DNA from: Mayamaea pseudoterrestris
Lineage: Eukaryota; Bacillariophyta; Bacillariophyceae; Sellaphorales; Sellaphoraceae
DNA length: 64,000 nucleotides
NCBI GenBank assembly: GCA_027923505.1
Contig: BROI01000013.1
Span: 310,001 to 374,000 of the forward strand
Direction of reading: 5' to 3'
Shown: positions 5,890 through 63,291 of the stretch, piece after piece
Numbering within the stretch: position 1 is the stretch's first letter
Layout: each line of letters opens with the position of its first letter
Position numbers and translations under genes: made by a program
Notes under the pieces: model-generated
Databases searched by the model: none
What the model saw: the letters and a program-made list of their open reading frames with translations, nothing else
Told to the model about the DNA's origin: nothing

Positions 5890-5978
5890 TTAGAAAATTC
5901 TGTGTACTTCGTTAAAATATAACGAAATGCACAGCAAATTCCATGGCCAAGTTCCTTTGCGGACCGTGGAGCGGTCGG

Positions 5979-6314
5979 TTGACACTGGCACTTGTTTCAT
6001 ACTATTGCCTCGTGACGTAATTGACACTGGCACTCGTTTTCTATTAAAGCCTTAAGACGTAGTTTTCACTGGCACCCGTTTCAGACTATTGCCTTTTGAC
6101 ATGGTTTTCACTGGCACTCGTTTCACAGTATTGTCTTATGACGTAGTTTTCACTGGCACTCGTTTCGTACTATTGCTTGATGACGTAGTTTTCACTGGCA
6201 CTCGTTTCGTAGTATTGCCTTATGACGTAGTTTTCACTGGCACCCGTTTCATACTATTGCCTCATGAAGTAATTGACACTGGCACTCGTTTCGTACTATT
6301 GCCTTGTGACGTAA
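5979..6314. repeat. Promoter array 1: eight 42-bp tandem units with TGACGT sites
   Basis: The 336 bases divide into exactly eight 42-bp units. Each carries ACTGGCACTCGTTTC (minor variants) and most end in TGACGTAG or TGACGTAA. The array fills the shared upstream region of two divergent genes, the zinc-ribbon gene (start 5889, leftward) and the DGD synthase (start 6615, rightward). TGACGT is the core of bZIP/CRE-type sites, and in diatoms related sites mediate CO2/cAMP and light responses (family knowledge). Regulatory function here is inferred. The roughly 300 bases from 6315 to 6614 hold no array and are probably the 5' leader of the synthase. Confidence 0.85.
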
Positions 6315-6614
6315 TCGGCACTTGCTTTCGGTGGCCGGGCCGGCGTCGGCCTTGCCACAACTAGCGTTCGTCTTCGTTTCGCCATTGCCACATCGACTAC
6401 CAACGAGGGGAAGGCCTTTGGACAAAGACGGGAGGAAGACGCTTGAGAGCGTGACGAGTGACAGTAGTTTCTGTAGCGTTGTCTACGGTAGAGGATACAA
6501 TTATCAGGAGTTGCACGTCAAAGTCTCTGCTGCAACTCGGCGTGTCCGAAAATTGGACAAAAGGGCCGTCGAATCTCCAAAGGGAATCTCACGCAACGAA
6601 GCTACAAAATAACC

Positions 6615-8690
6615 ATGGGGAACCAACCAAGTGCTACTCCCTTGACTGATGGAAGCAATAGCAGCAGTGGATCGTCTCAATCATCCGAGACAAGTCTAGG
6701 TGAAGTAGACGAGACGACAATCATCACCAAGGTTGCAGCAGCTGCCTCGTCTTCGCTGCAGCTCACAAGCACCTCGGCTCGTTCCACGACGACGGCAGGC
6801 TGCTTGTCCTTTTGCTGGACATCAACGACAAGAACGAATCCTCCCTTGCTTCTAGTTGTCAATACAAAGAATGACTTAGATGACGACGAAGACGGAGAGG
6901 AAAACGAGTCAGATTTCAACGTTTCATCAAGTTCCTTTTGTTCACCTTCTGAAAAGGGCAGCAATTCACCAAGTACTTCGTTCTTTCGACGAAGCAGCAG
7001 CGGGTCCATGTCATCACTACTGTTAATGGACAATGACCCGCTCGCCTATACACCAAACGAACTTGCCTTGCGAGATGATGTCATTGTTGCAGCATCTGAT
7101 TGCGCACTGGACAAGGAATTGTGGATTGTCACAACGGCGGCACTCCCCTGGTTGACCGGCACGTCGGTGAATCCACTACTACGAGCGGCTCACTTGGCCT
7201 TGAGCAATGCTCGGAACTTTCCGCATCGTGAAACAACCTTGGTGGTGCCGTGGCTGGAGGATGCGCAGGATCGAATCGCATTGTATGGAAACGAATGGCA
7301 AGATTCCACGCCAATTGAGCAGGAGGCATACATTCGAACCTGGCTGGTTGACAATGCTTGCCTGCACGTCTCGTCGTTGCAACTCAAGATTCACTTTTAT
7401 CCGGCTCGATATCACGCCACGCTTCAGAGTATTTTTGCCATGGGTGACTTATGCGAACGATTAGTTGTACGAGATCCAGAACATAGTGTTTGTATTCTCG
7501 AGGAACCGGAACATGTCAACTTTTATCGAGCGCCCGGCTTGGTGAGCTGGAGAAGCAAGTTTCCTCATGTACGTGTGTAATTTAGTTTGCGTATCTTTTG
7601 CTGCGTTCATGGGTTGTAGACTGAACCCTGCAATCGATTTTCACAGGTCGTTGGAGTCGTTCACACCAACTACAAGGCGTATGCAGCAAACAACATTGGT
7701 GGAGTAGTCACAGCACCCTTGGTAGGCGCCATGAGCTCCTTCATGGTGCGAGCATATTGTGATCAAGTCATTAAACTTTCAAGCGTCTTGCAGGATTATG
7801 CCGTTGAAAAGGAAGTGGTTTGCAACGTGCATGGAAGTCGTTCTGCGTTTTTAAGTGCGGCAGAACCAACGGGCAATGAGGTTTACTTTATTGGCAAGAT
7901 GCTTTGGGCCAAGGGACTCGACAAGTTGCTCGAGTTGCAAGCGTACTGCAAGAAAAAGACTGGTCAGTACTTCGCAATGAGTGTTTACGGCAGCGGACCA
8001 CAAATGGAGGAAATCAAGGAGGCATTTTTGGGTCAGCAGCGGCGACATTGGAACGAAGACGCTGCAAAGTCGTCATCAGCATACGAGGCTTTATCAAAAT
8101 ATTACTCCTATTCGGTCTGGAGCGGGTTCCGGCAGCCATTGCCGGTCTCCTTCAAGGGTCGAAAAGATCATGCAGCGCTCTCGAGTGACTATAAGATTTT
8201 CGTCAATCCATCGGTGACGGAAGTCCTTTGCACGACAACTGCAGAAGCGGTAGCAATGAACAAATGGGTGATTGTCCCCGATCATGCATCTAATGACTTT
8301 TTTCGAGACTATCCAAATGTGCTGCTGTACAAGACGAACGAGGAGTTCCTTCAACTTTTCCAGCATGCCAAGGCGCACGCACCAAAGCCACTCTCGGACC
8401 CTTTGAAGCATACCTTGACGTGGGAAGCGGCCACGACGCGGTTCATCGAAGCAGCCGCGGTCAGTGAGCGTGACGCCGCCCGACGAAGCCGCATTGGTGC
8501 CAAGTATGATGAGACGATTGCCAAGTGGCACTACAAGCTCGGGAAGGGCTCAACGGGCGATGTCTTGCGCAAGGTTATGGGGGGCGGTCCCGTCGCAGAC
8601 CAATACAAGTACGAGAGAAGGAGCCAAAACAATTTGGAAATGATGGGGACGGCCAGTCCATCGACAGAAGTGGAGGCGTTTGTGAAATAG
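6615..8690 (+). CDS. DGD1: Digalactosyldiacylglycerol synthase (DGD1/DGD2-type glycosyltransferase)
   Basis: Two exons, 6615-7568 and 7647-8690, join to 665 aa. The intron at 7569-7646 separates KFPH from VVGVVHTNY, so the junction lies inside a conserved DGD motif. The enzyme transfers galactose from UDP-galactose to monogalactosyldiacylglycerol to make the plastid membrane lipid DGDG. Recognisable pieces are LWIVTTAALPWLTGTSVNPL, GKMLWAKGLDKLLEL, a GT-B fold C-half with FVNPSVTEVLCTTTAEAVAM, and FFRDYPNVLLYKT. The first roughly 130 residues are Ser/Thr-rich and unlike the plant protein. It starts MGNQPS, a plausible N-myristoylation signal, and I see no ER signal peptide. The symbol is by family; DGD1 and DGD2 cannot be told apart here. 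Confidence 0.88.
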
Positions 8691-8901
8691 CGGAAGCGGC
8701 GGAGCTTGGTGGTCATTGGACCATGTGTATTGTATCTGTATATGGCGTGATGTGTGTAGTGATGTTAAAATGTTTTTGTTCATTATTATTACCTAAAACA
8801 CTATAGTGCATACACATGAATAGGCCGAATGTACCGCGCAGGCAGCAAAGTAAAGCAACTGTGGGTCCGTGCTTCAGAACCTACCCTCGGCGTCCAATTG
8901 A

Positions 8902-10498: not shown

Positions 10499-10578
10499 AG
10501 TGATGACTAAAGAGTGGAAATCTTGTCGAGCAATGAGACAGGTTCGGCGAGATCAGATGCTGAAGCAGCAGCAGCAAG

Positions 10579-11418
10579 ATGCGCTGTTGTGCTGCTTGGG
10601 CTCGGCCGTGCGCTCTCCGACCTTCCATGTGTCGTAGCGTGACAGAATCAGTACCGGTCCGACGCTCGCACCTTCGTTTCATCGACGTCCACCGATTTTC
10701 GCAAGTGCGTCTCACAAATCGCCACCATGGCGCAGTTACGAGCGCAAACTGTACCATGCTCTCTATAACTAGCACAACTAGAGCAATGCTATGCAGTAGC
10801 AAGCGTGTGTCTTTGAAAGCAAGGAACGTTGCGCTCTTGCGCTACGCTTCGACAGAAACCGACAACGGCAATGATGGGCAAGTCAACTACTACTCGCTCT
10901 TGAATGTGCCGCAAACGTTTTCCATTCAGCAAGACGAACTCAAGCAAAACTACCGCGACCTCATGACGCAGCATCATCCGGACAAGTTTCGTCATCAAGA
11001 AAATGCTGCAGGCGATGCTGCCGACAATCAAGACTATGCATCATTGGTGACGCTTGCCTACGACACCCTCAAGCGTCCCCACACGCGGGCGCAGCACTTG
11101 CTGGCGCTGGAGACTGGAATAGACATGGAGAATGATCATCAAGTGCAGGAACACTCTGAGAATATCATGACGACTCTGCCGCCGGAAACGTTAATGCACG
11201 TCATGGAGCTGCGCGAGTCAATCGATGCAACGACTGCACCAGCCGCTCTGCAGTCGCTCTTGGAGGAGAATGAGAATCGCATGCAAGATACGAGTCTAGC
11301 GCTGGAGCAAGCCTTTCACGAAAAGGACTACGATAACGCCACCTTGCTGACGGCTCAAATGCAGTACTGGAACCGCATTCATGAAACGATTCGCGACAAG
11401 ATGCACTTGTTGTCGTGA
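10579..11418 (+). CDS. HSCB: Mitochondrial J-type co-chaperone HscB/Jac1
   Basis: A single exon encodes 279 aa. The first roughly 90 residues are Arg/Ser/Cys-rich with almost no acidic residues, as expected of a mitochondrial presequence. They are followed by a class III J domain (about 100-172) with the HPD motif in HHPDKF, then a helical C-terminal domain (about 195-275) matching HscB, which binds the Fe-S scaffold ISCU. The protein stimulates the Hsp70 that releases Fe-S clusters from the scaffold. Later Met codons near residues 60 and 70 are alternative starts, but only the first keeps the full presequence. Confidence 0.88.
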   Translation: MRCCAAWARPCALRPSMCRSVTESVPVRRSHLRFIDVHRFSQVRLTNRHHGAVTSANCTMLSITSTTRAMLCSSKRVSLKARNVALLRYASTETDNGNDGQVNYYSLLNVPQTFSIQQDELKQNYRDLMTQHHPDKFRHQENAAGDAADNQDYASLVTLAYDTLKRPHTRAQHLLALETGIDMENDHQVQEHSENIMTTLPPETLMHVMELRESIDATTAPAALQSLLEENENRMQDTSLALEQAFHEKDYDNATLLTAQMQYWNRIHETIRDKMHLLS

Positions 11419-12692: not shown

Positions 12693-12767
12693 GTTGGACA
12701 ATGGCGCTTGAATGAAATCTTGCAGTGAAGTCGCAAGTTAGATTGCGTCGTAACGCGCGTGACGCTG

Positions 12768-13055
12768 TTTTCACTGGCACTCGTTTCACATTATAGCCTG
12801 CTGACGCAGTTTTCACTGGCATTCGTTTCTTACTATAGCCTTTGTGACGCAGTTTTCACTGGCACTCGTTTCACAATATAGCCTCTAAGACGCAGTTTTC
12901 ACTGGCACTCGTTTCACATTATTGCCTAATGACGCCGTTTTCACTGGCACTCGTTTCGTGCTATTGCCTCATGACGTAATTGACACTGGCACTTGTTTCG
13001 TGCTATTGCCTCATGACGTAATTGACACTGGCACTCGTTTCATACTATTGCCTTT
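12768..13055. repeat. Promoter array 2: about seven 42-43-bp units of the same family as array 1
   Basis: Six full units and a partial seventh share ACTGGCACTCGTTTC with array 1. The units nearer the orphan gene end in GACGCAG and those nearer the gene at 13165 end in TGACGTAA, so the bZIP-like site changes along the array. Units 2 and 3 are 43 bp, the rest 42. As with array 1, it lies between head-to-head genes (starts 12692 leftward and 13165 rightward). Confidence 0.83.
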
Positions 13056-13164
13056 CACTGCCGTTTCAACTCTCACTCAGTATTGTTCTCTCGACGACCA
13101 TGGAGGACATCGATTTCAATGGTAGCTGCCCGTCATTACAATCACTCTATCATCACAAGAAAGA

Positions 13165-14361: not shown

Positions 14362-14523
14362 ACTACTCATAAATGCGTATAAAAGGCTTTTCATCTGGTT
14401 GGATGCGACCATAGTAGTTTATCGTCAATCGAACTACTGTACCTTTGAGATCCAGTCGTAGTGGTACTGATATTCTGTCGCGAAGGAAGTTTTGTTGCTC
14501 TCTTCCTGCCATGCAAATCGACC

Positions 14524-15894: not shown

Positions 15895-15930
15895 CGATGT
15901 ATAAAACAATTACATCATTGTTCACATTAG

Positions 15931-28058: not shown

Positions 28059-28108
28059 CTTTGAATTCAAAATAGACAACTGTCTATCGAAAACGGAAAC
28101 GAAACAAC

Positions 28109-29206
28109 ATGTTGATTAGAGGAGTCGACGTCAAGATCCCTTTGGTGCCTCGCGTCAAGTTTGAGTCGCTACCGAAGCAAGATTTAACCTTTACTAAGCA
28201 AGATGGATCCAAGCACAAGCGCAAGATACAGATTGCTAGTGATGAAGACGTCGTCTCGGTCCTTCGAGTGATCGAGGAGGTAATTGGAGCAATGGAGCAA
28301 CTCGCCTTCGATGGAGCAGCGCCTCATCGTATGCGTGTTCGCAAGGAATCCTTTCGCCTCTGCCTTCTTGGCTCTACTCGTGATACTTGGGATCAATCAG
28401 TCCTATTAGACGACACCATTGTCGCTTGGAATCAATCGCTCAAGCTCTTCCTCTCTGAGCTCATGGTCGTCGACGACGATTTGCGTCGACAAAAAGAGTA
28501 CCTCAAGAATCTCAAGTTGCCCGACGGCTATACAGTTACCCAATCGATTGGTTTGTTGCGTAACATGTTCAAGTTGATGACTTATATGCCGCAAGAAGAC
28601 GTGGATGTTTACCCGACGGCGGTCCAGTATACGGACGAGGACATCAAGGATCTCCTGCTCTCGATGGTCCCTGCTTGGTTACAAGCCAAGTTTGAGGAGC
28701 AATCTTTAACGAGCCGTCTAGTAGACCTCTCCCTGATTCAATTTGCGCGTTGGTTGGATAATATGATCAACTTAAAGGCAAGCAACAGGACTCCAGTCGA
28801 CTCGAACGACAATGGCGGCAGCCGTCGGAGCGGCAAACGCTCGCGTCGCAACGGTGGCAACGGCGGCGGCCAAAACAACGACCATGGGAATGGATCGAGA
28901 AAGAAGCATAAAGCAAACAACGATGCCAACGTGTGCAAATACCATGGCGGCCACACTTGGGAGCAGTGTTTCGGCAACCCCAAGGGCCCGCGCTACAAGC
29001 CGGGTTTCAAACTCGACAAGTCGAAATTGAAAAAGAAAAACAATGGAGGCGGCAACAATGGAGGCGGAGCCGCTCAAGAAGCTGACGAAGACCAGCACAT
29101 GATAGTGGATGTTACAACAGAGGAACCAGCGCAAGCTACAGAGGCAAACGACAGCGAGTCGGAGGTTGATTGGGATCAAGCAATTGGAGCGGTCTTTGAA
29201 GAATGA
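28109..29206 (+). CDS. gag: Gag-like protein of the Ty3/Gypsy element
   Basis: 365 aa. The first roughly 230 residues have the helical composition of retrotransposon Gag capsid regions. A basic Gly/Asn/Arg-rich stretch follows, then a zinc-knuckle-like CKYHGGHTWEQC (about 275-286), and an acidic C-terminus. It precedes pol in the same reading frame, so read-through, as known in some LTR elements, is one possible way of making Pol. Confidence 0.85.
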   Translation: MLIRGVDVKIPLVPRVKFESLPKQDLTFTKQDGSKHKRKIQIASDEDVVSVLRVIEEVIGAMEQLAFDGAAPHRMRVRKESFRLCLLGSTRDTWDQSVLLDDTIVAWNQSLKLFLSELMVVDDDLRRQKEYLKNLKLPDGYTVTQSIGLLRNMFKLMTYMPQEDVDVYPTAVQYTDEDIKDLLLSMVPAWLQAKFEEQSLTSRLVDLSLIQFARWLDNMINLKASNRTPVDSNDNGGSRRSGKRSRRNGGNGGGQNNDHGNGSRKKHKANNDANVCKYHGGHTWEQCFGNPKGPRYKPGFKLDKSKLKKKNNGGGNNGGGAAQEADEDQHMIVDVTTEEPAQATEANDSESEVDWDQAIGAVFEE

Positions 29207-29296
29207 GATACGGCGGCGGTCTCAGCGGCAGCCAGTGCGACGGAAGACGCTCTTGTAGCGGACGAAGTTAATCAACAAGCTACTAGCGACAAAGTT

Positions 29297-32200
29297 ATGG
29301 ATTACATTCCTGTTGTACTTATTGTCGTTGGTAAAGCTAATGGCAGTCGTTGCAAACGCACGCTTACCGCCCTTTGCGACTCAGGAGCATCGACAAGTTG
29401 GATTAGCCAAAGAGCGGCACATGGATTGCCTCAGTGCAAAGCGCCACGTTTAGTATCACAGACTGCAGTTGGCAAATTGGAAAGCTCTACCAAGATTGAT
29501 TTTGCCGAGTCGTTCCTTCCCGAGTTTAGTACTTCAAAAAGGATCGGCGCCTTTCCAGTGCGAGTCTTCCAGCAGGATATAAGGTATGACATGCTGCTGG
29601 GGCGAGACGTCTTAACGGCGCTCGGATTGACCATTGACTTTGGAGACAAACAAATCAATTGGGGTAATCAATCGACTCCAATGGTGACGATGGAGGATTT
29701 GAGCAATCGGCCAAAACAAATCAGAGACTCTTTGATTGAGCGGTTTGTTCTATTCTCTGATACTGAACCAGATCTGCATACAAGCGAGGAGATTTTATCA
29801 GCTAAGTATAACAAAGTGTCGACAGACGAGGTTGCCGATCAATCAACTCATTTAAATGAGGAGCAACGTACCGATTTAAAACGTCTCTTACGACGCTTTC
29901 CCGCTCTCTTTTCAGGCAAGCTTGGCAAATACCCACACGAGCTAGTCCACATTGACATTGATCCACAAGCTAAACCAGTCCATAAAAGACATTATCCAGT
30001 GCCTCGAGTGCATGAGCAAACCTTCAAGGAAGAGCTTGATCGACTCGTCGAACTCGGTGTACTTGAGCCTTGCGGCCGCAGCGAATGGGCGGCGCCCACC
30101 TTTATTATACCAAAGAAGGACAAGACTGTACGCTTTGTTTCTGACTTTCGGGCGTTGAATAAAGTGATTAAAAGGCGCACGTTCCCGATGCCGCGTATCC
30201 ATGAGCTACTGGCGAGGCGCAGCGGGTACAAGTTCTTCACAAAGCTTGATATTTCAATGCAGTATTATACCTTCCAGTTGGACAAGGAAAGCAGTGAGCT
30301 CTGTACAATTGCAACGCCGTTCGGTTTATTCCGTTACTTGCGCTTGCCAATGGGCGTTAATCAAGCCCCCGATATTGCTCAAGAGGTGATGGAGAAGGTT
30401 TTACAAGGGTTGCGCGACGTTGAAAAGTACCTTGATGACGTCGGCTGCTTTAGCGACACTTGGAAGGAGCATTTAACGCTGTTAGAGTCGGTTTTAAAGC
30501 GACTCGAGGCTAGCGGCTTTACAATCAATCCAAGTAAATGCGAATGGGGCGTCAAGGAAACCGACTGGCTTGGGTACTGGCTCACGCCGACAGGACTCAA
30601 ACCCTGGCCCAAGAAAGTCCAAGCAATTGTGGATATGAAGCCTCCTACCAATCTCAAGCAGTTGCGCTCATTCCTTGGTCTTGTTACATACTATCGAACC
30701 ATGTGGCCGCGACGGTCGCACATGCTTGCTCCTTTGACGAATCTCGTCGGCAAAAAGTCTTTTCAATGGGGTGCGCCTCAACAAAAAGCATTCGAGGAAA
30801 TGAAAGCAGTTGCAGCAAGCGATGTTCTTCTTCGTTATCCTGATCATAACAAGCCATTCGTCATCAAGACAGATGCCTCTGATTATCAACTCGGCGCCGT
30901 CATCCTTCAAGATGGCGTGCCGGTCGCCTATTTCTCGCGCAAACTCAACAGCGCCCAAGTCAATTACACAACCATTGAAAAGGAATTGCTAAGTATTGTT
31001 GAAACGCTCAAAACGTTTCGTTCGATGCTGCTTGGAGCGCGTTTGCAAATCCATACGGACCACAAAAATCTCACTCACGAGTTGACCGCCTTTCAAACGC
31101 AGCGCGTCCTTCGTTGGCGTCTGTACTTGGAGGAGTTCGGACCCGAGTTCCTTTATCTCAAAGGGGAGCTTAATACTGTCGCAGATGCTCTTTCAAGGGT
31201 TCCAACGGCAAGGGAAACCTCTCTAGTGGGGGAGAGCCCTGTTGATGTTTTAAAGCAACAACAGGATGCCCGACAAAAGGAAGCGCAAGAGGCAGCAGTG
31301 CCCATGCGACATACCCATCACGATGACAACTTACACGGTGTCAACGATGGCCATCACGATGGCGGCGTTCTTGCACATTCAATTGAATCAACAACAAACG
31401 ACCATGGGGAAAGGCAAATTGAAGAGCTATCAATTGCTAATGAAGGTTACTGTCTCCTACGGGACGAACCAGAGCTTGCAGAGTGCCTGCTCCTCCATCC
31501 GGAGTTCGACGAACAAGGGCGATATCCCCTGTCGTATTCAACCATTGCCGAGTATCAACAAGAAGATGCAACGCTAATGGCCGCAGTCCAAAACCAAGAC
31601 GCGACAACAATACAATACAAACAACTTGGAGACGTTCAGATTGTTGTATTCCAAGCAGACGAACGCTGGCGAATCTGCATCCCCAGTGCGATCCTCGATC
31701 GCTTGATTCTTTGGTACCACCTCTCAATGGCCCACGCTGGAATGACTCGATTAACAACGAGCATCAAGCAACACTTTTACCATCCTAAGCTCAAGCAGCG
31801 CGTCGAGCATCTTGTTGGTGCCTGCGATACTTGCCAACGCAACAAAGGAGGCAGCCGTCAATATGGAGAGCTGCCAGCGAGAGACGTGCGCGTCGCTCCT
31901 TGGTATGAGGTCCACGTTGATCTCATCGGACCATGGAAAGTATCCGTAAACGGCATTGACTGTTACTTCAGAGCGTTGACGATGATTGACCCAGTTACTA
32001 ACCTTGTCGAAATCGTTCGCTATCAGGACAAGTCGGCGTATCATATCGGCCGCCTCTTTGAAGACAACTGGCTCTCTCGTTATCCTCGACCAATGCGACT
32101 CGTTGCCGACCAAGGCAGTGAGTTTAAAGGAGCATTTGGAACCATCCTTGAACACAATGGGATTGAATGGCATGCCGCTTCGGCCAAGACGCCCACTGCT

Positions 32201-32692
32201 AACAGCATTTGCGAGCGCTGTCACCTCGTTATTGGCAACGTGCTTCGTACCCTGGTTCACGCTCATCCGCCCGAAGACTTGATGGACGCTGACGATATAA
32301 TCGATCAATGTCTCGCCACAGCAATGCATGCAACACGAGTTGTATCAAGTGGAGCTCTTGATAATCTGTCTCCCGGTGCAGTCGTCTTTCAACGCGACAT
32401 GTTTCTGGATATACCGCTTGTTGCCGACATTCTAGCTATCTCTGTTAAACGAGAAGCGATTGTCAATGAACGTTTGCTCCAAGCGAACCGTTCGAGACTG
32501 ACTCATGACTTTAAAGTTGACGAGCAGATCCTCAAGAAGGTATACGACCCTAACAAGCTCGAAGAACGATGGATCGGTCCTTATTCAATTGAACAAGTCC
32601 ACGTTAATGGAACGGTTACCATTCGCCTCTCGCCAATGGTGACTGACCGAGTTAATATTCGACGTATCAAGCCGTATCGGCAAGACGTTTGA
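29297..32692 (+). CDS. pol: Pol polyprotein of the Ty3/Gypsy element
   Basis: 1131 aa. Aspartic protease motif CDSGAST near residues 27-33; reverse transcriptase about 205-385 with YLDD near 377; RNase H with KTDASDYQLG (about 525) and HTDHKNLTHE (about 587); integrase with an HHCC zinc domain (about 800-850, CDTCQRNKGG), a DDE core (HVDLIGPW, VADQGSEF) and a C-terminal GPY-type module (ERWIGPYSIE). The order RT-RH-IN defines Ty3/Gypsy. The reading frame is continuous. Confidence 0.93.
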   Translation: MDYIPVVLIVVGKANGSRCKRTLTALCDSGASTSWISQRAAHGLPQCKAPRLVSQTAVGKLESSTKIDFAESFLPEFSTSKRIGAFPVRVFQQDIRYDMLLGRDVLTALGLTIDFGDKQINWGNQSTPMVTMEDLSNRPKQIRDSLIERFVLFSDTEPDLHTSEEILSAKYNKVSTDEVADQSTHLNEEQRTDLKRLLRRFPALFSGKLGKYPHELVHIDIDPQAKPVHKRHYPVPRVHEQTFKEELDRLVELGVLEPCGRSEWAAPTFIIPKKDKTVRFVSDFRALNKVIKRRTFPMPRIHELLARRSGYKFFTKLDISMQYYTFQLDKESSELCTIATPFGLFRYLRLPMGVNQAPDIAQEVMEKVLQGLRDVEKYLDDVGCFSDTWKEHLTLLESVLKRLEASGFTINPSKCEWGVKETDWLGYWLTPTGLKPWPKKVQAIVDMKPPTNLKQLRSFLGLVTYYRTMWPRRSHMLAPLTNLVGKKSFQWGAPQQKAFEEMKAVAASDVLLRYPDHNKPFVIKTDASDYQLGAVILQDGVPVAYFSRKLNSAQVNYTTIEKELLSIVETLKTFRSMLLGARLQIHTDHKNLTHELTAFQTQRVLRWRLYLEEFGPEFLYLKGELNTVADALSRVPTARETSLVGESPVDVLKQQQDARQKEAQEAAVPMRHTHHDDNLHGVNDGHHDGGVLAHSIESTTNDHGERQIEELSIANEGYCLLRDEPELAECLLLHPEFDEQGRYPLSYSTIAEYQQEDATLMAAVQNQDATTIQYKQLGDVQIVVFQADERWRICIPSAILDRLILWYHLSMAHAGMTRLTTSIKQHFYHPKLKQRVEHLVGACDTCQRNKGGSRQYGELPARDVRVAPWYEVHVDLIGPWKVSVNGIDCYFRALTMIDPVTNLVEIVRYQDKSAYHIGRLFEDNWLSRYPRPMRLVADQGSEFKGAFGTILEHNGIEWHAASAKTPTANSICERCHLVIGNVLRTLVHAHPPEDLMDADDIIDQCLATAMHATRVVSSGALDNLSPGAVVFQRDMFLDIPLVADILAISVKREAIVNERLLQANRSRLTHDFKVDEQILKKVYDPNKLEERWIGPYSIEQVHVNGTVTIRLSPMVTDRVNIRRIKPYRQDV

Positions 32693-37863: not shown

Positions 37864-38278
37864 AGTGCCAAAAACTTTGATTTTCAACGGCTGTCAATGC
37901 TACACTCTGAACCAGTGTGCCAAAAAGTTTGATTTTCAACGGCTGATGATACTACACTCCGAACCAGTGTGCCAAAAACTTTGATTTTCAACAGCTGTCA
38001 ATGCTACACTCCGAACGAGTGTGCCAAAAACTTTGATTTTCAACGGCTGTCAAAGCTACACTTTGAACCGGTGCGCCAAAAACTTTGATTTTCAACGGCT
38101 GGCAATGCTACACTCCGAACCAGTGTGAACCAGTGTGCCAAAAACTTTGATTTTCAACGGCTGTCAAAGCTACACTTTGAACCGGTGCGCCAAAAACTTT
38201 GATTTTCAACGGCTGGCAATGCTACACTCCGAACCAGTGTGAACCAGTGTGCCAAAAACTTTGATTTTCAACGGCTGT
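37864..38278. repeat. Promoter array 3: eight units (52/62 bp) of a second repeat family
   Basis: Eight copies of a core (GTGCCAAAAACTTTGA then TTTTCAACGGCTG) recur every 52 bp. Two units are 62 bp because ten bases (TGAACCAGTG) are doubled. A pair of units of about 114 bp is itself repeated. CAACGG is a MYB-type core, and two units read GCGCCAAA, an E2F-type site. The array lies between head-to-head genes (Hep59-like leftward, DEAD-box rightward). Binding is inferred. Confidence 0.83.
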
Positions 38279-47959: not shown

Positions 47960-48204
47960 CCACAGTCGACTTCCGTTGATAATCAAAGTTTTTGGCACTA
48001 CTGTTTAAGCCACAGTCAGCTTCCGTTGAAAATCAAAGATTATGGCACTACTGTTTGAGCCCTAGTCAGCGTCCGTTGAAAATCAAAGTTTTTGGGTCAA
48101 CTGTTTGAGCCACAGTCAACGTACGTTGAAAATCAAAGTTTTTTTGAGCCACAGTCAATGTACTTTGAAAATCAAAGTTTTTGGCACTACTGTTTGATTC
48201 ACAG
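47960..48204. repeat. Promoter array 4: five units of family 2 in inverted orientation
   Basis: Five copies, mostly 50 bp apart, contain CGTTGAAAATCAAAG followed by TTTTTGGCAC, the reverse complement of the core in array 3. One unit is shorter (about 39 bp). The spacer differs from that of array 3 (TACTGTTTGAGCCACAGTC). The array again lies between divergent genes (starts 47873 leftward and 48301 rightward). Confidence 0.82.
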
Positions 48205-48300
48205 ATATGATAATCGTACCGGTACACGAAGTCATGACGCGCGCGGATCGCTTGTTCCAGAAACTGCATGACTCGTCTTTGTATCGTCTCATTTACAATC

Positions 48301-49215: not shown

Positions 49216-49252
49216 CTAAATTGGATCATTTTTTCATCAAATTATTTATTGT

Positions 49253-53097: not shown

Positions 53098-54975
53098 CTA
53101 TCATACCACTACAATGCCCTGTGCCCTACAACCCAATGAGTCAGGCAAAACATGTCCAGGATGTGCCATTGACATGAGGATGGTCTGAAATGGTGCAAAA
53201 TGGACTGCCGGGAGGCCTACACCATGGAATGGTCTGCAGGCTGGGTGTGGCCAACACCCCAAATTATGGAATCATACCATGAGAATGCCCCGTGCCCTGG
53301 CCACCCAACAGCCCAATGAGTCAGGCAAAACATGTCCAGGATGTGCCATTGACATGAGGATGGTCTGAAATGGTGCAAAATGGACTGCCGGGAGGCCTAC
53401 ACCACGGAATGGTCTGCAGGCTGGGTGTGGCCAACAGCCCAAATTATGGAATCATACCACTACAATGCCCAATGCCCTGGCCACACAACAACCCAATGAG
53501 TCAGGCAAAACATGTCCAGGGTGCGCCATTGACATGAGGATGGTCTGAAATGGTGCAAAACGGACTGCCTGGAGGCCTACACCATGGAATGGTCTGCAGG
53601 CTGGGTGTGGCTGGCCAACACCCCAAATTATGGAATCATACCACTACAATGCCCCGTGCCCTGGCCACCCAACAACCCAATGAGTCAGGCAAAACATGTC
53701 CAGGGTGTGCCATTGACATAAGGATGGTCTGAAATGGTGCAAAACGGACTGCCGGGAGGCCTACACTATGGAATGGTCTGCAGGATGGGTGTGGCCAACA
53801 CCCCAAACTATGGAATCATACCACTACAATGCCCCATGCCCTGGCCACCCAACAACCCAATGAGTCAGGCAAAACATGTCCAGGGTGAGCCATTGACATG
53901 AGGATGGTCTGAAATGGTGCAAATTGGACTGCCTGGAGGCCTACACCATGAAAAATGGTCTGCAGGCTGGGTATGGCCTACGCACCAAATTATGGAATCA
54001 CCACTACACTGCCCCATGCCCTGGCCACCCAACAACCCAATGAGCCAGGCCCCAACAGCCCAATGAGTCAGGCAAAACATGTCCAGGATGTGCCATTGAC
54101 ATGAGGATGGTCTGAAATGGTGCAAAATGGACTGCCGGGAGGCCTACACCACGGAATGGTCTGCAGGCTGGGTGTGGCCAACAGCCCAAATTATGGAATC
54201 ATACCACTACAATGCCCAATGCCCTGGCCACACAACAACCCAATGAGTCAGGCAAAACATGTCCAGGGTGCGCCATTGACATGAGGATGGTCTGAAATGG
54301 TGCAAAACGGACTGCCTGGAGGCCTACACCATGGAATGGTCTGCAGGCTGGGTGTGGCTGGCCAACACCCCAAATTATGGAATCATACCACTACAATGCC
54401 CCGTGCCCTGGCCACCCAACAACCCAATGAGTCAGGCAAAACATGTCCAGGGTGTGCCATTGACATAAGGATGGTCTGAAATGGTGCAAAACGGACTGCC
54501 GGGAGGCCTACACTATGGAATGGTCTGCAGGATGGGTGTGGCCAACACCCCAAACTATGGAATCATACCACTACAATGCCCCATGCCCTGGCCACCCAAC
54601 AACCCAATGAGTCAGGCAAAACATGTCCAGGGTGAGCCATTGACATGAGGATGGTCTGAAATGGTGCAAATTGGACTGCCTGGAGGCCTACACCATGAAA
54701 AATGGTCTGCAGGCTGGGTATGGCCTACGCACCAAATTATGGAATCACCACTACACTGCCCCATGCCCTGGCCACCCAACAACCCAATGAGCCAGGCAAA
54801 ACATGTCCAGGGTGTGCCATTGACATGAGGATGGTTTGAATTGGTGCAAAACGGACTGCCTGGAGGCCTACACCACGGAATGGTCTGCAGGCTGGGTGTG
54901 GCCAACACCCCAAACTATGGAATCATACCACTACAATGCCCCCTGCCCTGGCCACCCAACAACCAAATGAGTCAG
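53098..54975. repeat. 180-bp satellite, first block (about ten monomers)
   Basis: Monomers of about 180 bp (180-184) contain AAAACATGTCCAGG, CCATTGACATGAGGATGG, GGAATGGTCTGCAGG and AATTATGGAATCATACC. The landmark CATGTCCAGG recurs at 53151, 53331 and 53511. A four-monomer segment of about 746 bp (near 53307-54052) is repeated directly at 54053-54798 almost unchanged, so the array has a higher-order level. Long open frames in it are by-products of the 3n period. Confidence 0.95.
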
Positions 54976-54982
54976 GCTAGGT

Positions 54983-55862
54983 TTGCAGGGCAGAATATGT
55001 GGTACCATTAGTTTGCAGGTTGGTTTGCAGCTGACAAATTGGTACAGTACGTTTGCGGGTGGACTAAGTGGTACCATTAGTTTGCAGGTTGGCTTGCGGC
55101 TGACGAATTGGTACAGTACGTTTGCGGGCGGACTAAGTGGTACCATTAGTTTGCAGGTTGGCTTGCGGCTGACGAATTGGTACAGTACGTTTGCAGGCGG
55201 ACTAAGTAGTACCATTAGTTTGCAGGTTGGGTTGCGGCTGACTAATTGGTACAGTACGTTTGCAGGTGGATTAAGTGGTACCATTAGTTTGCAGGTTGGC
55301 TTGCGGCTGACTAATTGGTACAGTACGTTTGCGGGTGGACTAAGTGGTACCATTAGTTTGCAGGTTGGCTTGCGGCTGACTAATTGGTGCGTATGCGGGT
55401 GTGGACTAAGTGGTACCATTAGTTTGGCAGGTTGGCTTGCGACTGACGAATTGGTACAGTACATTTGGGGCAAATGGACATGTCCGGGTGTGCCATTAGT
55501 TTGCAGGTTGGCTTGCAGCTGATGGTTTGCGGGTGGACTAAGAGGTACCATTAGTTTGCAGGCTGGCTTGCAGCTGACGAATTGGTACAGTACGTTTGCG
55601 GGCGGACTAAGTGGTACCATTAGTTTGCAGGTTGGCTTGCGGCTGACAAATTGGTACAGTACGTTTACGGGTGGACTAAATGGTACCATTAGTTTGCAGG
55701 TTGGCTTGCGGCTGATGAATTGGTACAGTACGTTTGCGGGCGGACTAAGTGGTACCATTAGTTTGCAGGTTGGCTTGCGGCTGATGAATTGGTACAGTAC
55801 GTTTGCGGGTGGACTAAGTGGTACCATTAGTTTGCAGGTTGGGTTGCGGCTGACTAATTGGT
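54983..55862. repeat. 69-bp tandem family nested in the satellite
   Basis: About thirteen units of 69 bp contain ACCATTAGTTTGCAGGTTGG, AATTGGTACAGTACGTTTGC and GGACTAAGTGG. They are flanked on both sides by the 180-bp monomers. One internal spot near 55477 (ACATGTCCGGGTGTGCCATT) resembles the 180-bp monomer, hinting at derivation from or recombination with it. The period is a multiple of three, so long frames exist on both strands; they are not treated as genes. Confidence 0.93.
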
Positions 55863-58440
55863 GCACCATGGAATGGTCTGCAGGCTGGGAGTGGCCAACA
55901 CCCCGAATTATGGAATCATACCACTACAGTCCCCGTGCCCTGGCCACCCAACAACCCAATGAGTCAGGCAAAACATGTCCAGGGTGTGCCATTGACATGA
56001 GGATGGTCTGAAATGGTGCAAAAGGGACTGCCAGGAGGCGTACACCATGGCATGGTCTGCAGGCTGGGTGTGGCCAACACCCCAAATTATGGAATCATAC
56101 CACTACAATGCCCCATGCCCTAGCCACCCAACAACCCAATGAGTCAGGCAAAACATGTCCAGGGTGTGCCATTGACATGAGGATGGTCTGAAATGGTGCA
56201 AAAGGGACTGCCAGGAGGCCTACACCATGGAATGGTCTGCAGGCTGGGTGTGGCTACACCCCAAATTATGGAATCATACCACTACAATGCCCCGTGCCCT
56301 GGCCACCCAACAACCCAATGAGTCAGGCAAAACATGTCCACGGTGCGCCATTGACATGAGGATGGTCTGAAATGGTGCAAAAGGGACTGCCAGGAGGCCT
56401 ACACCATGGAATGGTCTGCAGGCTGGGTGTGGCCAACACCCCAAATTATGGAATCATACCACTACAATGCCCCGTGCCCTGGCCACCCAACAACCCAATG
56501 AGTCAGGCAAAACATGTCCAGGGTGTGCCATTGACATGTGGATGGTCTGAAATGGTGCAAAACGGACTGCCGGGAGGCCTACAGCATGGAATGGTCTGCA
56601 GGCTGGGTGTGGCCAACACCCCGAATTATGGAATCATACCACTACAGTGCCCCGTGCCCTGGCCACCCAACAACCCAATGAGTCAGGCAAAACATGTCCC
56701 GGGTGTGCCATTGACATGAGGATGGTCTGAAATGGTGCAAAACAGACTGCCTGGAGGCCTACACCACGGAATGGTCTGCAGGCCGGGTGTGGCCAACACC
56801 CCAAATTATGGAATCATACCACGACAATGCCCCATGCCCTGGCCACCCAACAACCCGATGAGTCAGGCAAAACATGTCCAGGGTGAGCCATTGACATGAG
56901 GATGGTCTGAAATGGTGCAAAACGGACTGCCTGGAGGCCTAAACCATGGAAAATGGTCTGCAGGCTGGGTATGGCCAACACCCCAAATTATGGAATCATA
57001 CCACTACAATGCCCCATGCCCTGGCCACCCAACAACCCAATGAGTCAGGCAAAACATGTCCAGGCAAAGGGTGTGCCACTGACATGAGAGTGGTCTGAAA
57101 TGGTGCAAAAGGGACTGCCGGGAGGTCTACAGCATGGAATGGTCTGCAGGCTGGGTGTGGCCAACACCCCGAATTATGGAATCATACCTTTACAATGCCC
57201 CATGCCCTGGCCACCCAACAACCCAATGAGTCAGGTAAAACATGTCCAGGGTGACCCATTGACATGAGGATGGTCTGAAATGGTGCAAAACGGACTGCCT
57301 GGAGGCCTACACCATGGAAAATGGTCTGCAGGCTGGGTATGGCCAAAACCCCAAATTATGGAATCATACCACTACAATGCCCCGTGCCCTGGCCACCCAA
57401 CAACCCAATGAGTCAGGCAAAACATGGCCAGGGTGTGCCATTGACATGGTGCAAAACGAACTGCCTGGAGGCCTACACCACGGAATGGTCTGCAGGCCGG
57501 GTGTGGCCAACACCCCAAATTATGAAATCATACCACTACAATGCCCCATGCCCTGGCCACCCAACAACCCAATGAGTCAGGCAAAACATGGCCAGGGTGT
57601 GCCATTGACATGAGGATGGTCTGAAATGGTGCAAAATGGACTGCCGGGAGGCCTACACCACGGAATGGTCTGCAGGCTGGGTGTGGCCAACACCCCAAAT
57701 TATGGAATCATACCACTACAATGCCCAATGCCCTGGCCACCCAACAACCCAATGAGTCAGGCAAAACATGTCCAGGGTGAGCCATTGACATGAGGATGGT
57801 CTGAAATGGTGCAAAACGGACTGCCTGGAGGCCTACACCATGAAAAAATGGTCTGCAGGCTGGGTATGGCCAACACCCCAAATTATGGAATCATACCACT
57901 ACAATGCCCAATGCCCTGGCCACCCAACAACCCAATGAGTCAGGCAAAACATGGCCAGGGTGTGCCATTGACATGAGGATGGTCTGAAATGGTGCAAAAC
58001 GGACTGCCTGGAGGCCTACACCACGGAATGGTCTGCAGGCCGGGTGTGGCCAACACCTTAAATTATGGAATCATACCACTATAATGCCCCATGCCCTGGC
58101 CACCCAACAACCCAATGAGTCAGGCAAAACATGTCCAGGGTGTGCCATTGACATGAGGATGGTTGGAAATGGTGCAAAACGGACTGCCGGGAGGCCTACA
58201 CCATGGAATGATCTGCAGGATGGGTGTGGCCAACACCCCAAATTATGGAATCATACCACTACAATGCCCCGTGCCCTGGCCACCCAACAACCCATTGATT
58301 CAGGCAAAACATGTCCAGGGTATGCCATTGACAGGTGCAGAGTCTCAAATGGTGCAAAAAGAAATGCCTGGAGGCTGACACCATGGGTACAGCCTCCACT
58401 GTGGGTATGGCCAACACCACATGTTGTAGATTCTGACCTG
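55863..58440. repeat. 180-bp satellite, second block (about fourteen monomers)
   Basis: The same monomer family as at 53098 resumes immediately after the 69-bp block and runs to about 58440. The last monomer is clearly diverged (from about 58320), as expected at an array edge. Variants include AAA insertions after the CCATGG and an internal shortening near 57450. Confidence 0.95.
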
Positions 58441-58592
58441 TCAAACGGAGCACCCAAAAAATTTTGACATAAGTTGGGTGGGAGCTGAGAACATGTTCAT
58501 GCAATGGCATTAAACAAGGAATGTTCTCTGTGGCTACTGTAGATTGAGGATTTGGCAGCCTTCAGTCAAATCACAATTTCGTCTTTGCCCTT

Positions 58593-58598
58593 TATATA
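58593..58598 (+). promoter_or_regulatory. TATA-like element of the 5S rRNA gene
   Basis: TATATA lies 28 bp upstream of the predicted 5S start, the position where external TATA-like elements help Pol III in plants and some fungi. The 180 bases between the satellite and the 5S gene otherwise show nothing recognisable. Confidence 0.5.
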
Positions 58599-58620
58599 CT
58601 ATTGTCCCTGCTCCGTGCAT

Positions 58621-58739
58621 AGCAAGGACCATACAGCGCTGACAGCACCGCATCCCGTCTGCTCTGCGAAGTTAAGCAGCGCCTGGCCTGGTTAGTACTA
58701 CGGTGGGGGACCACGTTGGAATCCCAGGTGTTCTTGTTT
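58621..58739 (+). rRNA. 5S ribosomal RNA gene
   Basis: The sequence has the conserved 5S segments CGAAGTTAAGCAGCGC (box A region) and GGTTAGTACTACGGTGGG (towards box C), with ACCATAC near the 5' end. The ends pair: GCAAGGAC at 58622 with GTTCTTGT before the T run, forming helix I. Length is about 117-119 nt. It is a single copy rather than a tandem array. Exact ends are uncertain by one or two bases. Confidence 0.93.
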
Positions 58740-58741
58740 TT
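58736..58741 (+). terminator. Pol III T-run terminator of 5S
   Basis: GTTTTT directly follows the 3' strand of helix I, the usual Pol III stop signal. Confidence 0.7.
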
Positions 58742-59099
58742 ACTTTTGCAACTGCGTTTACATTAACGTTAGCTCTCACCACCGTAATGGCCTAACATGC
58801 TTTGCAGCTAATAGTATGTTACGCTGCAAACCAATAGTTTTTGGTCTCTTCCATGGTAGGTCACGTCCTTGGAAATACTCGTACCGGTATGGGAATTTTA
58901 TCTGAGATAACCGAAGCGACGTCAATTATAATCGCATCGGCATTCATGCATGAGCGACAATCTCGCTATTCGATCATCGAAACGTTTCCTTCCATCGATG
59001 CCATCCTTCAGTCTGCCTTCTAGTGCCACTACTTTTTGCAGTGCATTGTAGTATTAGGAATATCTCTAATACATAAAAGAGGGGGAATAGCCTTGAAAG
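58742..59099. other. Region between 5S and the MFS gene
   Basis: About 360 bases with no supported gene or repeat. This should hold the promoter and 5' leader of the MFS transporter gene. Confidence 0.5.
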
Positions 59100-61025
59100 A
59101 TGGTTTCTTTATTCAATAGCCTGAGACGGTCACCTGTGGATTCGTCGCACGATTCTCTGCTTGGCGATTCTCAACGAAACAATCAACCAAATGACATTAG
59201 CGACGACATTGGACCCAGCATTAACCATCAAAACTATGCATCAGTCGACAATGGTCATCAACTTGACGAGTCGCACAGTAGCAACTGGTCGGATATTCGT
59301 TCGCCGTCGTTTGACTCTCAAGCAACTGAATCCTCCGTCGTCGGCCAGCCAATACACATGCCCCTCAAGAACATGGTTTGCATTCTTTCGACTGCATTTT
59401 CATATGGATGTATCATGACGACACTTTTCATCATTACACTGCCAACTGAATGCGAACGAATCCATCAGTCGCATCCAACGACTCCAAAGAGCGTTGCTCT
59501 TGGAATCTTTGTTTCCGCAGCCGGCTTGACGCAACTTATCAGTCCATTGGCAGGTCGCCTGTCCGACAATTACAAACCACCAAACGGATTGGAACTGGGA
59601 CAAAGACTTCCGTACCTAGTGCTTGGTTCATTTAGTGCTGTTATTGGCTTGATGGGACAAATGTTTGCGTCAAGCGCCGGCAACGTTTGGTTTCGATACG
59701 GCATTTGCTTCCTGCTCAACATGCTTGGCTTGACGCTCATGTACAGCATGATGCTTGCACTCATTCCTGATCAAGTGCCGGCGCATCAAACTGGAGTTGC
59801 CAATGGTGTATTGGCGCTGCTGCTGACAACGGGCAGCCTGTTTGGGTTTGGACTCATGCATCTTTACTACGACTACTACAGCGATAGCTACTCCTTGACG
59901 GTTTCAAAGTCGTCCAAGCACAAGACGCTGGACTTGAGCAGTGTCTATGCATTGTACATATGCGTGGTGATTGTTTCAACAATACTGACTGGAACGTATG
60001 GGCATGACAGAGATGCCGAATTGGCTGCTGAGCGCATGGACAGTCGACGAAGCGAAAAGCAATTGGAGGAGGACGATGATGAGGCGCCAAGCGACAAGCT
60101 CGTCGACACTACAATAGCTACAGCAAGCAACACTACAGATCCATCTCTAGCGCATCATGTGCATCATCACAAGCATGGAAAACGCCGTTCACAGTGGCGT
60201 CATGCCGTTGGACGAACCACGCGCAAGGCCACCCAAGCAGTCATTGTTACACCATCAATCATACTCAAGTCAATGCTGATTGATCCATTTCAGAGTATGC
60301 ATTGGAGGGAAATCCGTCAATCTTATACCATTGACCGAGTCAAGTACCACGACTTTTACTTCGTCACCCTTTCGCGTTTATTCTACTATTGCGGCATGAG
60401 TGTCCAAACCTTCTTTCTCTACTTTCTCAAGGACATTATCCATAAGATGCACCATCAGGGACCCGAAACAGCCGTTGCTAGTTTGGCAATACTTGGACAA
60501 TGCGCAGCAGCCTTGACGTGCTACCCCGTCGGTGTCCTTTCCGACAAGGTGCTTGGCGGAAAACGCAAGCCCTTTGTCTACCTGTCATGCGCCGTCCTGT
60601 GCGCCGCCACGGCTGCCATTATATGGGCGCGGACGCTGTCGGACATGATGCACCTTTGTCTTATCATTGGAGCCGCGAATGGTGTTTACCTGACAATGGA
60701 TACGAGTCTGGCGGTGGACACGTTGCCAAAGGCTTTTGAGTTGGAACATGATGATTCGATTGGCAGTGCGCAACTACTTGGTGTTTGGGGTGTTGCGGCG
60801 CTTCTAGGAACGACGCTTGGCCCCATGGTTAGTGGTCCTCTCTTGTACATATTTGGACGCCACTCAACAACCGCATGCGATGAGGATGATGGTTGTGCTG
60901 CTACGACTGACACCTATGACGAAAGCTACACAATTTATGGCTACGCCGTTGTTCTTGGGCTTTCTTCCTTTTACTACTTGCTATCGGCGTGGTCATTGTG
61001 CTACGTTCGAAGTCATCATGAATAA
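59100..61025 (+). CDS. Major facilitator superfamily transporter
   Basis: A single exon encodes 641 aa. A Ser/Asp-rich cytosolic N-terminus of about 80 residues precedes about twelve membrane spans. A long charged loop containing a His-rich stretch (HHVHHHKHGK, about 345-354) separates the two halves. MFS marks are AGRLSDN in loop 2-3, ALIPDQVPAHQTGVANG in the first half, and PVGVLSDKVLGGKRKP in the second. The pattern is closest to GPH/sucrose-type or related MFS groups. Substrate is not inferable. A hydrophilic EEDDDEAPSD segment may be regulatory. Confidence 0.83.
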   Translation: MVSLFNSLRRSPVDSSHDSLLGDSQRNNQPNDISDDIGPSINHQNYASVDNGHQLDESHSSNWSDIRSPSFDSQATESSVVGQPIHMPLKNMVCILSTAFSYGCIMTTLFIITLPTECERIHQSHPTTPKSVALGIFVSAAGLTQLISPLAGRLSDNYKPPNGLELGQRLPYLVLGSFSAVIGLMGQMFASSAGNVWFRYGICFLLNMLGLTLMYSMMLALIPDQVPAHQTGVANGVLALLLTTGSLFGFGLMHLYYDYYSDSYSLTVSKSSKHKTLDLSSVYALYICVVIVSTILTGTYGHDRDAELAAERMDSRRSEKQLEEDDDEAPSDKLVDTTIATASNTTDPSLAHHVHHHKHGKRRSQWRHAVGRTTRKATQAVIVTPSIILKSMLIDPFQSMHWREIRQSYTIDRVKYHDFYFVTLSRLFYYCGMSVQTFFLYFLKDIIHKMHHQGPETAVASLAILGQCAAALTCYPVGVLSDKVLGGKRKPFVYLSCAVLCAATAAIIWARTLSDMMHLCLIIGAANGVYLTMDTSLAVDTLPKAFELEHDDSIGSAQLLGVWGVAALLGTTLGPMVSGPLLYIFGRHSTTACDEDDGCAATTDTYDESYTIYGYAVVLGLSSFYYLLSAWSLCYVRSHHE

Positions 61026-61157
61026 ATACTGTAAAATTTTTGTAAAATAGCTAGTGTACAGTTAAAGACTCGATGATATGTTCAGTAAACGTCTCGACTG
61101 TTCCTACTTTTGCTCGTTTGGCTGATTGTTGGTTTGGTGAACCATCTCATTTCGATG

Positions 61158-62510
61158 CTATGTACTTGACTCGACTGTGACTACTTTTGCTCGTTTGGCT
61201 GATTGTTCGTTTGGTGAACCATCTCGTTGTTGCTCCTTTTCCAGTCGATCCAAAATGTACGCATCTGAATAGGATCGTCCGTCTCCAAACTCTTTGATTG
61301 TCGCATCCACTGCCTTGCCGTCGAGCCGAACGTGAGCCTGGTAATTCACATTCCAGACACGACAAAGCTGCTCCAATGACTGGCAGTCACATGTTTTTCC
61401 AATTGTTTGACCCGCCGGATATACATGAGGCAGAAACGGAACCAAGTGCGGAGGAGTTCGTCGAAAGGACATCATTTCCGAAATGACATACTTGGTGTTC
61501 TTGTAGTGAGTGTAATACTTTAGAGAGTGCTGCAAGTATTGTTGAATGACAGTCGTCTTGTCGAGAAGGAGACCCGAGTCGTAAGAATACTTGGCATCCG
61601 CAATGATGTTAACGTCAGTGGGCTTGCGAAAAATGCTCGCATTGTAAAGGGCGGGTCGTCCGAGCAAGACGCCGCGAGCGCCAGTCGACGAACAATAGTC
61701 AGTAAAGTCTTGCCTCGTGTAAAAGTCTCCATTGACAAAGAATGGTATGCTCGAATGTTTCGCAGTGACAATCTCCAAAACTTGCTTGAGCTCATCCTTC
61801 TTGGCAGGTTGCACTTCGGTGTCACCGACCCGTCGACCGTGAATGGCAATCGCATTGCATCCGGCATGAATCAAGCCAGACACAAAGTCCACCGTCGCCT
61901 GCGTCGTTGGTAGCAATCGAATCTTGGCCGAAACTGGAGTGTTTGGAACAGCGTTGGAAATGGAGCGAATAATAGTGCAGGCTCTAGCAGGGTCACTCAG
62001 CAGTGCCGATCCCATGCCGCCGCTCGTGCTAAACTTTTTGGGACATCCCATGTTGACATCAATGCCGTCAGCATCTTGACTAACATGCGTCGCTACTTGC
62101 TTGGCTAGTTCTGAACAGCCCGTTCCAATCTGAACAATCAACTTGCCTGTTTCTATCTTTGGATCGATTCGTAGCAGCAAGGGTGCATGTTCACCCATTT
62201 TTCGAATCGTTTTTCGATTCGCGTTAGAAACATCCTTGACGTAGTCAATTGTTGTATCGCTCGAGTCACTGTAGGTAGTCACGACTCGCTTGGTGTTTAG
62301 AATGCTTCGATCCATGAGTTCCTCCGTGTATACCAAGTCGGCTCCATACTCCAAGGCCAATGTCCGAAGAGGCGTGGTTCCGGCGCGGACCATGGGAGCG
62401 AGACAGACGAGAGGGGCACGTGATGACGGTTCATGATCATTCGTATTGCCATTGCTGCTTCTATCAGAGAGTCTGTAGAGTCGTCTGACTCTATCTTCCC
62501 TGCTGCTCAT
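61158..62510 (-). CDS. DUS2: tRNA-dihydrouridine synthase 2 (DUS2 type)
   Basis: It reads leftward as 450 aa in one exon. The TIM-barrel enzyme reduces uridine 20 in the tRNA D-loop using FMN and NADPH. Marks: VCLAPMVRAGTTPLRTLAL at the FMN site, DLVYTEELMD, DGIDVNMGCPKKFSTSGGMG with the catalytic Cys, AIAIHGRRVGD, FFVNGDFY, and GVLLGRPALYN. There is no C-terminal double-stranded RNA domain as in human DUS2. The DNA coding for the last residues is partly duplicated just downstream (about 61095-61152). The gene is divergent from the last gene with array 5 between. Confidence 0.92.
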   Translation of the reverse strand: MSSREDRVRRLYRLSDRSSNGNTNDHEPSSRAPLVCLAPMVRAGTTPLRTLALEYGADLVYTEELMDRSILNTKRVVTTYSDSSDTTIDYVKDVSNANRKTIRKMGEHAPLLLRIDPKIETGKLIVQIGTGCSELAKQVATHVSQDADGIDVNMGCPKKFSTSGGMGSALLSDPARACTIIRSISNAVPNTPVSAKIRLLPTTQATVDFVSGLIHAGCNAIAIHGRRVGDTEVQPAKKDELKQVLEIVTAKHSSIPFFVNGDFYTRQDFTDYCSSTGARGVLLGRPALYNASIFRKPTDVNIIADAKYSYDSGLLLDKTTVIQQYLQHSLKYYTHYKNTKYVISEMMSFRRTPPHLVPFLPHVYPAGQTIGKTCDCQSLEQLCRVWNVNYQAHVRLDGKAVDATIKEFGDGRSYSDAYILDRLEKEQQRDGSPNEQSAKRAKVVTVESST

Positions 62511-62672
62511 TGAATGGTCTATAATAATGGGGAGGTGAGTGTAGATTGTAAGGGACGAGTCGTCTATCTAGTGCTACTACTATAATCTGCAATGCATCCA
62601 TGGCCGCGAGACGCGCAAACGTGCGAATGATGAACGCAAACCAAAACCGGTAAGATGTCTTTCTACAATCCC

Positions 62673-63031
62673 ATATGACGTAATTGACACTGGCACTTGT
62701 TTCGTACTATTGCCTAATGACGTAATTGACACTGGCACTCGTTTCATACTATTGCCTTATGACGTGATTGACACTGGCACCCGTTTCGACATATGACGTA
62801 GTTTTCCTTGGCACTCGTTTCACAATATTGCCTTGCGACGTAGTTTTCACTGGCACTCGTTTCGTACTATAGTCTTATGACGTAGTTTTCACTGGCACTC
62901 GTTTCGTACTACTGCCTTATGACGTAGTTTTCACTGGCACTCGTTTCGTACTACTGCCTTATGACGTAGTTTTCACTGGCACTTGTTTCGTACTATTGCC
63001 TTATGACGTGATTGACACTGGCACTCGTTTC
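62673..63031. repeat. Promoter array 5: about nine units of the 42-bp family
   Basis: Nine units carry ACTGGCACTCGTTTC-type cores separated by TGACGTAA, TGACGTGA or TGACGTAG. One unit is shortened to about 34 bp, still keeping TGACGTAG. The array lies between DUS2 (start 62510, leftward) and the gene at 63292 (rightward), again a head-to-head pair. The flanks 62511-62672 and 63032-63291 show no supported gene. Confidence 0.83.
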
Positions 63032-63291
63032 AAGGCAATAGTAACCAAAAATAAAGTAAATGGTGGTGTATTGCCGGTTCGTTTCAAGTCGATTTTTCGG
63101 TTTTCACGTCGTGATCATGGCGAAAGAAGAAAGTGGTCATGGATGGTTCGCAGTGCGACATAATTTGCATCACTGCGACATCCGTTTCCGCATCCTCGGC
63201 ACGACGGCAAAATGCATCACCAGATTTGGATCAGCTGCGCTTGCTTTCCTACTACTGGAAGTACTGTCACCGACAAAACCATTACTATAAA

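Follow-up and report, generated by a model that had tools for sequence, protein, structure and literature searches.

The short tandem arrays described here for the genome of the diatom Mayamaea pseudoterrestris (30.6 Mb in 41 contigs) lie upstream of genes and are probably homotypic promoter clusters, i.e., a regulatory module multiplied ahead of a gene start. Their observed features are the location, the anatomy of the module, its position-specific conservation, a fixed starting phase, the arrangement of unit subtypes in blocks, and duplications breaking in or at an array. Like homotypic clusters in general, the arrays combine a position upstream of gene starts with a repeated unit showing motif-like conservation of particular positions. 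Five arrays were detected by TRF in the window, i.e., the whole 64-kb stretch of DNA analyzed (bases 310001–374000 of contig C13), three with a period of 42 bp, one of 52 bp, and one of 50 bp (Table 1). Gene directions were deduced from a coding model trained on the same sequence. In agreement with the preliminary description, which had placed all arrays of the window between head-to-head genes, five out of five were located in divergent gaps (TRF and coding-model flank calls), and at least five other divergent gaps of the window carry no array according to the coding-model annotation, as had also been stated.

Table 1. Tandem arrays and terminal block in the 64-kb window (positions are those of the window).
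Feature	Position	Strand	Basis and remarks
42-bp array, family A, 7.9 copies	5983..6313	+	TRF; flanking genes at ~5715 (-) and ~6495 (+)
42-bp array, family A, 7.0 copies, divergent gap	12760..13053	+	TRF; left-flank gene score just 11.9
52-bp array, family B (52-bp linker type), 8 cores	37865..38278	+	TRF and core positions
50-bp array, family B (50-bp linker type), 5 cores, divergent gap	47960..48204	-	TRF, cores, linker type
27-bp terminal block, between the 50-bp array and the alpha/beta-hydrolase-like gene start	48212..48238	-	
42-bp array, family A, 8.7 copies	62674..63031	+	TRF; Dus-like gene (-) left, gene from ~63187 (+) right

Both families occur far beyond chance. For family A, a pattern with 24 specified bases yielded 444 exact genome matches compared to 0 for the reversed control; 36 loci were distinguished among the first 100 matches listed (contigs C1–C6), so that approximately 160 loci are to be expected genome-wide (estimate). 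The exact 24-base core of family B accounted for 60 genome matches in 27 loci, compared to 0 in the control, and the 23-base core added one locus to these. The examination covered 57 arrays beyond the window, of which 36 belong to family A (29 of the 36 loci among the first 100 listed matches, six of the best-scoring loci of a separate search, and L009) and 21 to family B (21 of the 27 loci with the exact 23-base core). Family A and family B were mixed in 0 of the 62 examined arrays, which bears out the earlier statement that each array uses a single family. Non-coding arrays of 40–60 bp period were absent from five 10-kb control stretches, and arrays of neither family (period 20–120 bp) outside coding calls at the annotated loci comprised a 30-bp repeat at L053, a two-copy 20/21-bp repeat at L067, and part of the window satellite.

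Outside the window, both flanking genes could be called for 47 of the 57 arrays, the other ten being without a confident gene on one side. Among the called arrays, 35 were divergent, 11 tandem, and 1 convergent, meaning that 46 out of 47 are located upstream of at least one gene. Stricter gene calls resulted in 31 divergent, 9 tandem, and 0 convergent arrays (17 uncalled) and in 29, 7, and 0 (21 uncalled), while removal of the second member of four recently duplicated family B locus pairs left 32, 10, and 1, respectively. The base rate was sampled from the array-free gaps of the window and the five 10-kb stretches; by length, 27–32% of these gaps were divergent and 30–43% convergent. Compared to them, arrays featured an excess of divergent (p between 1e-11 and 4e-9) and a shortage of convergent gaps (p between 2e-10 and 2.4e-6) in six settings, with 0–1 convergent cases among 36–47 called arrays, depending on the setting. 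An ATG was found within 300 bp of the array in 52 of the 58 cases with a measurable ATG. The free gap length on the side of the nearest ATG amounted to a fraction of 0.28, compared to 0.25 for uniform placement; placement within gaps is therefore close to random, and anchoring to the start site is not indicated.

The family A unit of 42 bp consists of the blocks TGACGY, CACTGGCACTCGTTTC, and TATTGCCT, separated by free spacers, and begins in a fixed phase. Across 200 units, TGACGYA, TTNNCACTGGCACTCGTTTC, and TATTGCCT were kept, and the columns between these blocks were nearly free; in the columns not used for selection, the commonest base ranged from 98–118 of 200 (nearly free) to 195–199 of 200 (nearly fixed). 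Moreover, 65% of the differences between adjacent units fell in 9 of the 26 unselected columns, namely those with the highest variability in the complementary half of the arrays, compared to 35% for a uniform distribution. TGACGT or TGACGC was intact in 172 of the 200 units, and TGACGA or TGACGG was encountered once. Arrays of this family start at TGACG and stop at TATTGCCT or at the next TGACGTA: for every base of the TGACG ahead of the first core, between 32 and 37 out of 41 arrays fit the consensus, as compared to approximately 14 further upstream. The units fall into two subtypes, with either GA or TT preceding the core, and units of a subtype are grouped in blocks (62 switches compared to 92 expected, a number as low being reached in 0 of 2000 permutations), which is a sign of local duplication. 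Units are nearly as similar between arrays (0.747) as within one array (0.795). The median copy number was seven units in family A and five in family B. Only 1 of 39 family A arrays featured a single core in a search that required near-exact units, and this rarity of isolated modules, where looked for, is unusual for a plain binding site. Aureochromes bind TGACGT. In the accessible text of PMC11142338, TGACGT/C is described as the target of bZIP11 in upstream regions of Phaeodactylum genes; since family A arrays carry TGACGT/TGACGC in upstream regions as well, a bZIP protein is the first candidate reader for this family, and for family B there is no candidate. One passage of the aureochrome paper PMC10967249 contains no motif sequence.

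The preliminary description had distinguished two unrelated families of 42 bp and 50–52 bp. The latter group resolves into two subfamilies that share one 23–24-nt core but differ in the linkers surrounding it. This core differed by 5–6% between adjacent units and the two linkers by 17% and 29%, with the core columns having been pre-selected at no more than five mismatches in 23. Unit likeness between and within arrays was 0.773 and 0.809 for the 50-bp and 0.657 and 0.736 for the 52-bp subfamily, respectively. Inside the 52-bp array of the window, positions 38013–38278 represent a higher-order repeat of 114 bp (TRF, 99% matches), indicating a very recent duplication. Furthermore, two terminal blocks were recognized. 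The first (Table 1) has four genome copies within three mismatches, all exact, and the second has four matches, of which two are exact and two differ at one position; all of these adjoin family B arrays. The gene called behind the first block in the window shows no similarity to those at L051/L052, and the genes called behind the second block at L042 and L057 are likewise not similar to each other. At L041, L050, and L056, the terminal-block side is without a confident gene, and L041 and L056 share 163 bp of other flanking sequence. Four recent duplicate pairs lie beside family B arrays. The duplicates of L044/L045 (100% over 1431 bp) and L053/L055 (96% over 1588 bp) start inside one array and at the edge of the other, and the duplications of L048/L049 and L051/L052 cover the whole divergent pair. 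A one-mismatch variant of the family B core was also observed in identical form at no fewer than five isolated sites (C1:942327, C8:319525, C8:959968, C9:661605, and C10:899716); it ends in CAAAG, giving it inverted-repeat symmetry.

From this arrangement we infer binding, an effect on transcription, and the mode of spread. One or several sequence-specific factors would bind each unit, namely a module with a bZIP-type TGACGT/C site and two other conserved blocks in family A and the 23–24-nt core in family B, and many units may raise occupancy or hold the promoter open. An array with divergent neighbors is flanked by two promoters and may act on both, whereas an array at tandem genes would serve one. 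Copy number would shift via unequal exchange within arrays, and ectopic recombination or duplication may have spread the arrays, those of family B with the adjoining terminal block, among promoters. Units do not appear to point at a regulated gene: in 11 tandem cases, six were directed toward the gene and five were not, and in divergent gaps the distance to the gene faced by the units was shorter by a small margin only (Wilcoxon test: p 0.04 over 37 arrays and 0.58 in family B by itself). Helical phasing was dropped as an explanation because a period of 50 bp, unlike 42 and 52 bp, is not near a whole number of turns.

The main rival to multimerised modules is a neutral repeat tolerated in promoters, i.e., a dispersed minisatellite or small mobile element inserted or tolerated in open promoter DNA, spreading by transposition or ectopic exchange and having no regulatory role, which we consider possible but unlikely. 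The recurrence of the same units at many loci, the fixed starting phase, and the two terminal blocks found beside family B arrays only would fit such an element. In addition, 10 of 41 family A arrays have GGC, the inverted form of the TTGCC end, exactly at -26 relative to the first core (at most three at any other position), an inverted copy of the array-end 11-mer with no more than two mismatches lies close to the five-prime edge in 6 of 41 cases (in part inverted array units), and two family A arrays (L069 and L077) are inverted pairs. The family A loci are also regionally clustered: for the 36 listed loci on C1–C6, nine neighbor pairs were closer than 25 kb, as compared to 2.7 expected (1 of 5000 simulations), and the largest stretch free of family A among the matches listed spans 2.25 Mb (9 of 5000 simulations). 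This clustering is not predicted by a purely functional reading. However, target-site duplications were absent when 41 family A array strands were compared with permuted pairs (three bases, 18 vs. 15.6; four bases, 5 vs. 4.6; five or more bases, 0), and the flanks of family A share nothing beyond the array sequence, which also led us to reject the family as a piece of a larger element. Internal units are conserved position by position, where the ends of an element would impose no constraint. A viral origin was likewise rejected, since 0 exact matches of either module were obtained in viral contigs.

Multimerised modules may have been reshuffled by recombination. Because two of the four duplicate pairs have their breakpoints in or at arrays, recombination through arrays is likely, and by this route promoters may have moved between genes. 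It is a speculative, rather doubtful extension that the arrays (in family B with the terminal block) represent transferable promoter cassettes copied before unrelated genes through array recombination. A single event could then bring a gene into a regulon, with the array acting as a regulatory site and as a substrate for recombination alike.

According to the preliminary description, the arrays look like a class of bidirectional promoters built from amplified transcription-factor modules. The modules are indeed dispersed in promoter regions, contain motif-like blocks, and avoid tail-to-tail gaps, but a specifically bidirectional character was not recovered, as 11 of the 47 called arrays are tandem. 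The rule of exclusive head-to-head placement applies to the window and is a strong tendency elsewhere, with 35 divergent, 11 tandem, and 1 convergent among the 47 called arrays outside it. In the array-free sample, 62–74% of promoters already reside in divergent gaps, which largely accounts for the head-to-head placement of most arrays. Compared to this promoter base rate, the ratio of 35 divergent to 11 tandem arrays was not significantly different (Fisher p 0.16–0.79 over six settings), and the divergent share of 35 out of 46 gave a binomial p of 0.025–0.72 when the base rate was taken as exact. The expected enrichment for divergent orientation was thus present among the sampled arrays relative to array-free gaps, but not significantly relative to promoters. 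These results indicate elements upstream of genes and do not support a specifically bidirectional role: the head-to-head excess is largely what any upstream element would give in this genome, and a modest extra preference for divergent gaps may exist. A dedicated role of the arrays in driving two divergent genes jointly, as the divergent majority outside and all five cases inside the window and the share slightly above the base rate in some settings might suggest, is accordingly quite improbable in view of the tandem cases, and the data do not need a bidirectional interpretation. Chromatin boundary or replication-origin elements between transcription units are very improbable, because such elements, intergenic, multimeric, and adjoining varied housekeeping genes as the arrays are, would be expected in some tail-to-tail gaps, where nearly no called array was found.

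Several known systems resemble the arrays in part. As far as the accessible texts of PMC3516485 and PMC3899988 describe them, promoter tandem repeats and minisatellites also consist of tandem units changing in number by duplication, but here the same few units are found again at numerous promoters within a single genome and are conserved at specific positions. The bZIP11 elements, in the available portion of PMC11142338, share the hexamer, the T/C choice, and the location in upstream regions with family A; here, however, the hexamer belongs, as a single block, to a 42-bp module whose tandem copies lie on one strand, whereas for PtCA1/PtCA2 the motif is described on both strands. Most arrays resemble the head-to-head bidirectional promoters characterized in the accessible parts of PMC7817982 and PMC11676430 in lying between close divergent genes, but a quarter of the called arrays adjoin tandem genes and their divergent share agrees with the promoter base rate. 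Foldback and miniature inverted-repeat elements have in common with the arrays the dispersed tandem units, the inverted ends in a minority of cases, and the two inverted-pair arrays; family A differs in having neither target-site duplications nor common flanks. No recognized description of such arrays in a diatom was found in the literature searched, which lay mostly outside subscription journals.

If the modules work as binding arrays, an estimated 160–190 promoters would share two or three defined modules that vary naturally in copy number. The effect of site number on expression could then readily be tested, and poorly known diatom regulators would become approachable. Terminal blocks confined to the sides of arrays would document the copying of promoters between genes.

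Pfam scans of the flank segments revealed varied housekeeping families beside the arrays, and no common function was seen among the 65 of 66 family A and 34 of 37 family B segments scoring at least 20; a wrongly chosen neighbor (window 10828–11415) and three recent-duplicate copies were left out. Regarding the gene names given in the preliminary description, Pfam at E ≤ 0.001 gave 0 families for the segment called Hep59, and no glycosyltransferase family appeared in the 21-member batch holding the segment called DGD (E ≤ 0.001). Dus, epimerase/NAD-binding, DEAD helicase, and alpha/beta-hydrolase families were present in the batches of the other named genes, the batch scan leaving the matching member unassigned. 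A non-coding RNA gene as the missing partner of arrays was rejected, with 0 Rfam matches in 20 loci and 0 tRNA genes in 23 loci.

Some further observations concern the surroundings of the arrays. The first 2.25 Mb of C1 contain no exact family A match among the matches listed. At L053, three short non-coding arrays of a palindromic-looking 30-bp unit are located at 60–174, 451–550, and 1142–1254. Within the window, satellite repeats of 180 bp and 69 bp (53124–58386 and 58621–58739) directly precede a full-length 5S rRNA gene, and retrotransposon-like gag/pol open frames were found at 28103–32692. The PsbO protein encoded in the window matched a photosystem II chain of PDB entry 8iwh best (499 bits), followed by four chains with 461–465 bits; the best-matching entries are presumably diatom structures.
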